A stretch of 64,000 nt of DNA, taken from assembly GCA_009663185.1 (NCBI GenBank), contig VJZX01000005.1, forward strand, positions 35,698-99,697, read 5' to 3'. The translations under genes and the position numbers were made by a program. This stretch comes from Isoptericola halalbus. GTDB lineage: Bacteria; Actinomycetota; Actinomycetes; Actinomycetales; Cellulomonadaceae. Every line of letters begins with the position of its first letter. The first letter of the stretch is position 1. Below, one piece after another: positions 57,761 to 61,636 of this stretch. Under the pieces are notes generated by a model that was not told the DNA's origin, made no database searches, and saw only the letters and a list, made by a program, of their open reading frames with translations.

Positions 57761-57866
57761 GGTGTCCGAACGGGGGACCGCTGAGGGGCCGAGATTGGAG
57801 GATTCCTCCAAAACGCGGTGGTGAGCGTTGGGCGGCACACCGGCAGACCGCACCCTCGGGGTGCAA

Positions 57867-57897
57867 CCTACGCTTGCGTAGGCTACGAAGGCGTAGG
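57867..57897 (+). promoter_or_regulatory. Tandem CTACG-CGTAG palindromes upstream of the 2-oxoacid dehydrogenase operon
   Basis: CCTACGCTTGCGTAGG (57867-57882) is a perfect palindrome and is followed by CTACGAAGGCGTAG (57883-57896), a second palindrome with the same half sites. Lrp/AsnC-family regulators such as BkdR bind sites of this general form near branched-chain dehydrogenase operons. The 298-bp gap (57687-57984) otherwise holds the hairpin at 57695 and a small GGAGGATTCCTCC palindrome near 57796. Confidence 0.6.
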
Positions 57898-57984
57898 TTC
57901 GGGGGGCTCGGTCCACCGGTCCCGCCGGACCTGCCGATGCCACGCAGCCTGACCCGGACAGGGCCGTCAGCGAAGGGAGACCGC

Positions 57985-60139: not shown

Positions 60140-61636
60140 ATGAGCACGCAGCGCTTCCCTCTGCCCGACGTCGGCGAGGGGCTCACCGAGGCCGAGATCG
60201 TCGAGTGGCGCGTCGCCGTGGGAGACACGGTGACGGTCAACCAGGTCCTCGTCGAGATCGAGACGGCCAAGTCGCTCGTCGAGCTCCCGTCGCCGTGGGC
60301 CGGGACCGTCACGGCCCTGCTCGCCGAGGAGGGCACGACCGTCGAGGTCGGCACGCCCATCATCGAGGTCTCGACGGGCGCCCCCGCCGAGCTGTCAGCA
60401 CCCGGTGAGTCTCACGGGTCACCGGCCGCTGACAGCTCCGACGGTGAGGGCTCCGGGTCGGTGCTCGTGGGCTACGGGACCGGCGACGGCGGCACCGGCC
60501 GCCGGCGCCGCCGTCGTGCGGGCTCCGCTCCCGTCGGCGAGCTGTCAGACGCCGGCACCCCTGGAGGGTCACGGGGTTCTGACAACTCCGCGAGGGCGAG
60601 CGCGCCTGAGCCTGCGGCGCCGGCACCCGCGCCGGCACCAGCGCCGCCACCGGCACCCGCGCCGGTGGGTCCGGCGATCGAGAAGGCGATGGCGAGCGTC
60701 CCGGTCGTGGAGGGTGCGGCGTCGGGCCGAGTCCGCGTGCTCGCCAAGCCGCCCGTGCGCAAGCTGGCCAAGGATCTCGGCGTCGACCTCGGCTCGGTGC
60801 ACCCGACCGGGCCGGGCGGCATCGTGACGCGCGAGGACGTCGTCGCGCGCGCCGAGGCGGCCAAGCCCCAGACACTCGCGACGTATCCCGAGGACGACCA
60901 GCCGTGGCTCGAGTCGGGCATGGTCAGCCAGGACGGGCGCCAGACGCGCGTGCCCGTGAAGTCGGTGCGCAAGCGCACGGCCGAGGCGATGGTCGCGAGC
61001 GCGTTCACCGCCCCGCACGTGACGGTCTTCCACACGGTCGACGTCACCAAGACGATGAAGCTCGTCGAGCGCCTCAAGGCCGACCGCGACTTCGCCGACG
61101 TTCGCGTGACGCCGCTCCTGATCGCGGCCAAGGCCGTGCTGCTCGCCGTGCGCCGGCACCCCGAGATCAACGCGAGCTGGGACGACGCCACACGCGAGAT
61201 CGTCTACAAGCACTACGTGAACCTCGGGATCGCCGCGGCGACACCCCGCGGCCTCGTGGTGCCGAACATCAAGGACGCTCACGCGCTCGACCTGCTGGGG
61301 CTCGCGAAGGCGATCGCGGGGCTCACCGCGACCGCGCGGGCCGGGCGGACCTCGCCCGCCGACATGTCCGACGGCACGATCACCATCACCAACGTGGGCG
61401 TCTTCGGCATCGACACCGGCACGCCGATCCTCAACCCCGGTGAGGCCGGCATCTTCGCGTTCGGCGCGATCCGGCAGCAGCCGTGGGTGCACAACGGCAA
61501 GGTCAAGCCGCGATGGGTGACGCAGCTCGCGCTGAGCTTCGACCACCGCCTGGTCGACGGCGAGCTCGGCGCGCGGTTCCTGTCCGACGTCGCGCGCGTG
61601 CTCGAGGATCCGGCACGCGGCCTCGTCTGGGGCTGA
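60140..61636 (+). CDS. Dihydrolipoamide acyltransferase (E2)
   Basis: 498 residues. One lipoyl domain (residues 1-80; Lys in EIETAKSLVELP), a linker (~80-195) rich in Ala/Pro and Arg, a peripheral-subunit-binding domain (PPVRKLAKDLGVDLGSVHPT), and the catalytic domain (~265-498) with LSFDHRLVDGELGARFL carrying the HxxxDG site. It transfers the acyl group to CoA. The linker contains two in-frame 50-bp palindromic units not expected in the family. No E3 gene is in the window. GAGGAGA precedes the ATG. Confidence 0.92.
   Translation: MSTQRFPLPDVGEGLTEAEIVEWRVAVGDTVTVNQVLVEIETAKSLVELPSPWAGTVTALLAEEGTTVEVGTPIIEVSTGAPAELSAPGESHGSPAADSSDGEGSGSVLVGYGTGDGGTGRRRRRRAGSAPVGELSDAGTPGGSRGSDNSARASAPEPAAPAPAPAPAPPPAPAPVGPAIEKAMASVPVVEGAASGRVRVLAKPPVRKLAKDLGVDLGSVHPTGPGGIVTREDVVARAEAAKPQTLATYPEDDQPWLESGMVSQDGRQTRVPVKSVRKRTAEAMVASAFTAPHVTVFHTVDVTKTMKLVERLKADRDFADVRVTPLLIAAKAVLLAVRRHPEINASWDDATREIVYKHYVNLGIAAATPRGLVVPNIKDAHALDLLGLAKAIAGLTATARAGRTSPADMSDGTITITNVGVFGIDTGTPILNPGEAGIFAFGAIRQQPWVHNGKVKPRWVTQLALSFDHRLVDGELGARFLSDVARVLEDPARGLVWG
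60389..60438 (+). repeat. 50-bp palindromic unit A inside the E2 gene
   Basis: Arms GAGCTGTCAG (60389-60398) and CTGACAGCTC (60429-60438), perfectly inverted, with a nested CCGGTGA/TCACCGG pair. In frame it encodes ELSAPGESHGSPAADS in the E2 linker. A related unit lies exactly 150 bp downstream. Confidence 0.7.
60539..60588 (+). repeat. 50-bp palindromic unit B inside the E2 gene
   Basis: Same length and ends as unit A: GAGCTGTCAG (60539-60548) and CTGACAACTC (60579-60588, one change). The middle differs, with GGCACCCCTGGAGGGTCACG. In frame it encodes ELSDAGTPGGSRGSDNS. Confidence 0.7.

Follow-up and report, generated by a model that had tools for sequence, protein, structure and literature searches.

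Protein-coding palindromes are best known from Rickettsia, whose palindromic elements (RPEs) form units of about 150 bp, many of them fused in frame to genes (PMC10969869, in the part of that article available to us). The family described here resembles RPEs in consisting of dispersed palindromes that lie in frame in many unrelated conserved genes and are apparently translated, but it differs in length (50 bp, with a 42-bp core, as against about 150 bp), in host (GC-rich Actinomycetota rather than Rickettsia), in its ends, in the single phase adopted by all intragenic copies seen, and in its genome-specific cores. A first-pass annotation of the locus had proposed this likeness, and the proposal stands to the extent that, by our analysis, the family appears to work like RPEs; membership has not been demonstrated, as length, ends and phylum differ and no RPE sequence was compared. 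No mobiliser of RPEs is known to us. GTAG/CGTC REPs also include intragenic copies in several species, and CGTC REPs have no dedicated transposase, as far as the accessible part of PMC3733652 goes. Like them, the present family is made up of short palindromes that occur singly or in close pairs and are in part intragenic, but it lacks the tag and measures 50 bp instead of the 20-40 bp given for REPs in the same accessible part (PMC3733652); none of six actinobacterial names sought in the main text of that article was present. MITEs are likewise small, with terminal inverted repeats (here the whole unit is an inverted repeat) and a patchy copy number, but the present family shows no target-site duplication, and no parent transposon end was found in the host genome, to which that search was restricted. 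In yeast mitochondria, a GC cluster copy lies in frame in the VAR1 gene. GC clusters are also short mobile palindromic DNA (PMC4478555, partial text), but they belong to an organelle genome, and no sequence comparison was made with them. A literature search for actinobacterial protein-coding palindromes, with most subscription journals outside its scope, found none.

The locus lies in a 64,000-nt stretch of Isoptericola halalbus DNA (the window, i.e. the whole stretch analysed), within a plus-strand gene of 498 codons (positions 60140-61636) for a dihydrolipoamide acyltransferase (E2), which was assigned by the Pfam domains Biotin_lipoyl (residues 6-76), E3_binding (residues 200-234) and 2-oxoacid_dh (residues 267-493). 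Two 50-bp palindromes with the consensus GAGYTGTCAG-N30-CTGACARCTC, to which no strand is assigned, are placed in the linker between the lipoyl and E3-binding domains. Unit A (60389-60438; GAGCTGTCAG-N30-CTGACAGCTC) has perfect 10-bp arms, and in unit B (60539-60588; GAGCTGTCAG-N30-CTGACAACTC) the right arm is one change away from the exact inverse. Within the units, the TGTCAG...CTGACA core of 42 bp (60393-60434 in A, 60543-60584 in B) is common to the subfamilies seen. The first-pass annotation was correct in stating that A and B share their ends and the inverse of these, are equally long, lie 150 bp apart (start to start) and are read through in frame as linkers, namely as ELSAPGESHGSPAADSS and ELSDAGTPGGSRGSDNS, respectively. 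The pattern GAGCTGTCAG-N20-40-CTGACA matched three times in the window, twice at A (once per strand) and once at B, as against 0.00 in 100 shuffles. As plus-strand RNA, A and B were predicted to fold at -37.6 kcal/mol (z -5.6) and -29.9 kcal/mol (z -3.1), each more strongly than 200 of 200 shuffles, and both units belong to the family captured by a covariance model (see below). All four TCA serine codons of the E2 gene fall within the two units. No Rfam 15 covariance model matched window positions 60300-60700 at E≤1. Elsewhere in the window there is an intergenic inverted repeat (57865-57899; 17-nt arms, 1-nt loop, 88% complementary), which by its sequence lies outside the family.

When the host genome was searched with the arm pattern, allowing up to three mismatches, 18 sites were obtained, and none with the reversed control. 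The covariance model found 20 copies (best E per site ≤9.8e-8), not counting a weak 21st match that was excluded (C27:42655, E 0.1); because it scored only 150 of 6355 first-look candidates, this number is a lower bound. The arm-pattern count likewise gave 20 host arm pairs, all of exactly 50 bp, yet two of the model's 20 copies measure 47 and 51 bp, so that about two additional arm pairs, whose places were not listed, should be present. The units are thus not unique, and they are not confined to E2: 14 of the 20 copies are intragenic (A, B and 12 of the other 18, as judged by our own codon-usage gene caller, trained on 24 ORFs of the window), three are intergenic and three run across a called gene end. 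By Pfam, the carrier genes encode two E2s (the second identified by its match to the E2 query), the biotin carboxylase subunit of an acyl-CoA carboxylase, uroporphyrinogen decarboxylase (HemE), uroporphyrinogen-III synthase (HemD), a heavy-metal P-ATPase (CopA), a molybdopterin oxidoreductase, MoeA, an Fpg/Nei glycosylase, a CydD-like ABC transporter, an HrpA-type helicase, a thioredoxin/NHL protein and, with a match below cut-off, a PrmC-like methyltransferase; the names CopA, CydD and HrpA represent our reading of the domains and should be regarded as putative. If A and B were no more than an ordinary protein repeat specific to E2 linkers, alike at the peptide level, the variability and tolerance of such linkers would suit it well, but the same DNA recurs in HemE, CopA and HemD and, as DNA, between genes (98 copies in the wider set described below), which leaves that explanation with practically no room. 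The further copies, together with relatives that lack the units, instead support the proposal of the first-pass annotation that a small palindromic element inserts into coding sequence where the protein tolerates it.

Among 18 genomes of the genus, host included, the E2 units occur only in the host and in G001 (G002 was readable only in part), and the two nearest relatives of the host, G015 and G007, are empty at this site. Both are empty also at the HemD site (filled in 2 of 9) and at a CopA loop (filled in 8 of 30, one of which, G011, is decayed), and neither contains a single copy by arm pattern (assemblies 86% and 74% complete). The corresponding segment of HemE measures 129 nt in the host and 87 nt in these two relatives, i.e. 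a net difference of 42 nt, or 14 codons. A clean net length was obtained only from HemE: the E2 linkers measure 105 as against 99 and 75 nt, and for HemD the difference to G015 amounts to 39 nt. The HemE, E2-A and CopA sites of G015 and G007 already have a glutamate at their left boundary, as does the HemD site in one of these two relatives, which suggests either a GAG-like target or a remnant. Since no within-species pair with and without the element was available, insertion is inferred from congeners, which are 6-10% diverged in the E2 and HemE proteins.

Sites filled in more than one species comprise those of biotin carboxylase (5 of 8), CopA (a second CopA loop is filled in 4 of 30), HemD, HemE (2 of 18) and HrpA, the last by matching flanking peptide. 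Such shared homologous sites, as in biotin carboxylase, CopA and HemE, could be explained by old insertions inherited vertically, in which ancestral sites were filled, cores were later overwritten by gene conversion and the elements were lost from element-free species; the genome-specific cores described below would fit a later homogenisation of this kind. A tree of three proteins places the carriers in two clades, both separate from the G007/G015 pair; a third clade has G008 as its sole carrier. The CopA insert of G008 is absent from its sister G012 and from the next relative, G009, and lies two residues off; because the sisters lack it, at least one reuse of the CopA loop is most simply independent. 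Moreover, G024, which belongs to another genus, is filled at both CopA sites, and many precise excisions would be needed to empty G015 and G007. These points against vertical inheritance make it an unlikely explanation, albeit one that still deserves consideration.

Several other sequences were noticed at or near these sites. The AELSAEHRYADR extension in HemE of G003 was tried as a candidate element and rejected, its palindromicity of 0.60 over 40 bp indicating no palindrome; G014 has a similar extension. The second E2 linker of G001 (L143) holds two in-frame palindromes of 46-48 bp with the arms CGTGTCAG/CTGACACG, which have the TGTCAG/CTGACA arms and the phase in common with the family, and that of G004 (L144) holds a different palindrome, read VEPVET. 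As the VEPVET peptide is found also at the site in biotin carboxylase, landing sites may be common to unrelated palindromes. In the hemD loop of G007 (L135) the peptide PDAEQ is repeated, and in the copA loop of G011 (L316) ELSG is followed by PDG/QDG repeats; both are perhaps decayed elements.

Three further properties were not part of the first-pass annotation: the recurrence of the family across Actinomycetota, its intergenic location in many genomes and its restriction to a single frame. With up to two arm mismatches, 25 of 116 genomes (host included) carry the element, five of them as a single copy, and 91 are without it; with the reversed control, a single match was obtained (G072). Copy counts range from 0 to 66, the highest being those of Isoptericola luteus (G005, 66), Isoptericola sp. 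BMS4 (G014, 48) and G001 (47), compared with 20 in the host. A scan of one genome per species returned at least 114 stretches, and the 80 matches listed are all from Actinomycetota. The matches listed include the genera Isoptericola, Krasilnikoviella, Luteimicrobium, Oerskovia, Cellulosimicrobium, Antribacter, Cellulomonas, Microlunatus and Propionicimonas, as well as MAGs of Nocardioidaceae, Propionibacteriaceae, Frankiales/Frankiaceae, Geodermatophilaceae, Nanopelagicales and one unplaced actinomycetotan. An exact-arm search of viral contigs gave no match. Strong local clustering was seen in G024 (L160:3001-13780), where seven elements occupy four called genes of the same strand in a segment of 11 kb, and loose intergenic arrays with a spacing of 104-306 bp were seen in Microlunatus speluncae (L190, L237).

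The reading frame was analysed in a wider set of units, filtered for a length of 50 bp, intact TGTC and GACA and at most two arm mismatches. This set has 174 rows (173 distinct copies) from 34 genome labels, with 66 intragenic rows (65 distinct; five of the 66 in weakly scored genes); three of the 20 host copies (C46, C67 and C17) fall outside it. The duplicate among the intragenic rows (L240/L336) means that the 34 labels stand for fewer genomes; judging by a 50-mer in common, G006 probably corresponds to Isoptericola sp. QY 916 and G019 to Antribacter gilvus. All 65 distinct intragenic copies are read in the phase NTG-TCN-NNN (ELS...), a number that overstates the evidence because copies at shared sites are not independent. 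When the 98 intergenic copies were read in both orientations, the ELS frame was open in 165 of 196 readings, a second frame in 116 and the third in none. As the second frame is open in 57 of the 66 intragenic copies as well, stops alone do not account for the single phase. By codon statistics, 3152 of 3757 GAG occurrences and 169 of 182 GAGYTG occurrences are in frame 0, so that a GAG-like target would bring most insertions into the ELS phase. The single phase may therefore reflect the target motif rather than the peptide, although this would be a partial explanation; both copies of a G001 subfamily whose outer arms are CCG are in this phase too, which hints at a role of the peptide as well. 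The third residue, serine, is encoded by TCA in all 66 intragenic rows, which is partly built in because the filter demands TGTC. Intragenic pairs are spaced 60 bp apart in 7 of 11 cases and by multiples of three in all 11, as follows from the single phase; of the intergenic pairs, four in I. luteus are 61 bp apart and the others 72 to 306 bp. Mitochondrial byp elements are segments that are skipped by the ribosome, and a strong hairpin within conserved genes could in principle be skipped too, in which case it would be absent from the protein. However, neither a constant stop-free frame nor a net length in HemE that is a multiple of three would be needed under skipping, and we find this explanation hardly credible.

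The 30-bp cores are specific to the genome, also where insertion sites are homologous, and the arms recur across Actinomycetota. For labels represented by four or more copies, mean core identity is 0.66 within as against 0.40 between genomes, which exceeds all of 1000 label shuffles. Where different genomes have a copy at one and the same site, the identity between these copies is 0.395, as against 0.655 with other sites of their own genome. The former value is close to the baseline obtained by comparing equally oriented intragenic copies between genomes (0.386 overall, 0.400 within genus), so that a shared site adds no core likeness. A 23-pair stem has 81.8% of its cells paired across 16 host copies, and no covariation of core pairs beyond shuffles was detected in the host genome alone, indicating that the hairpin is not visibly maintained there. 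Across genomes, 80% of core positions are paired in intergenic copies as against 52% in shuffles, and 69% as against 50% in intragenic ones, with shuffles that leave relatedness in place; when one copy per genome label is used, the paired share is 74%. Intergenic copies lie mostly just 3′ of genes, in a terminator-like position: of the 75 copies that lie no more than 60 bp from a gene boundary, 64 have a 3′ end as the nearest one, compared with a fraction of 0.37 for 242 element-free gaps (p=7e-18). Both the position and the pairing kept through core change would be expected of a functional hairpin, such as a terminator, a 3′-end stabiliser or a host-protein binding site, that was spread and kept by selection, with intragenic copies as by-products. 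However, counts swing between 0 and 47-66 among congeners, most of the host copies are intragenic, and palindromicity is lower in intragenic than in intergenic cores (0.607 vs 0.731, p=2e-6), as if the hairpin were unwanted in genes, even though among four single genomes compared only I. luteus reached p<0.05. A primarily functional hairpin is thus improbable in our judgement.

No target-site duplication could be detected for the 93 exact copies, in which exact flank duplication amounted to 5% at k=2 and 0 at k≥5; direct flank identity for k=2-12 was on average never more than 1 sd above shuffles. The flanks consist of a C-rich left and a G-rich right shoulder of about 14 bp. The motif GAGYTGTCAG, sought in the host genome only as a sign of an autonomous element with the same ends, occurs at 41 places, 35 in elements and 6 single, with 6 for the reversed control. 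A search for a mobiliser in a hand-picked subset of the gaps between nearby elements yielded, by Pfam, unrelated proteins or proteins of no family. Small palindromes, dimers at 60-61 bp spacing and some intragenic copies would all suit a REP element mobilised by a RAYT, an IS200/IS605-like transposase, as for GTAG/CGTC REPs (PMC3733652, accessible part), but the Y1_Tnp profile (PF01797, RAYT) matched none of the 25 element-bearing genomes, the three of 116 genomes that contain it are all element-free, and the GAGYTGTCAG ends carry neither a GTAG nor a CGTC tag. Movement by a RAYT is accordingly very unlikely.

What we observe, then, is a family whose dispersed copies occupy many unrelated genes in frame and in one phase only, whose sites are empty in the nearest relatives, and which shows neither a target-site duplication nor a RAYT gene. 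The most probable explanation, which we hold with good though not full confidence, is that A and B represent a small mobile element of Actinomycetota that forms a hairpin and is non-autonomous, its mobiliser being unidentified; copying in trans and translation are inferred. This element is about 50 bp long, with outer arms that are mostly GAGY/RCTC, inner arms TGTCAG/CTGACA over 42 bp and a genome-specific core. It would be copied in trans by an unidentified enzyme, probably on a folded single strand, and would insert beside GAG-like sites between a C-rich left and a G-rich right shoulder. Within genes, only insertions that keep the frame and fall into a loop or linker would survive, to be translated as a hydrophilic loop of 14-17 residues; between genes, survivors would gather right behind genes, where the hairpin may be harmless or act as a terminator. 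The core common to a genome could stem from a recent local master or from homogenisation. The mobiliser would presumably be a trans-acting enzyme of another kind than RAYT, working on the folded strand, an inference from the properties of the copies, since nothing here identifies such an enzyme.

Rickettsia are obligate intracellular bacteria that are hard to manipulate, and the Rickettsia-type phenomenon is now found in actinomycetes, several of which are named cultured strains. Genome-specific subfamilies, close relatives with zero copies and the repeated use of the same loops in textbook enzymes bring three questions within reach of tests: the agent that moves the elements, the neutrality or otherwise of the added loops, and the reason for the single frame. 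A more far-reaching version of the mobile-element reading, which is possible but which we can put forward only tentatively, is that of a phylum-wide hairpin with TGTCAG/CTGACA arms that is moved by an undescribed trans-acting enzyme without target-site duplication, repeatedly invades the same loops across genera and adds a loop of 14-17 residues in a fixed phase. If that were true, selfish DNA would be making protein insertions in actinomycetes.
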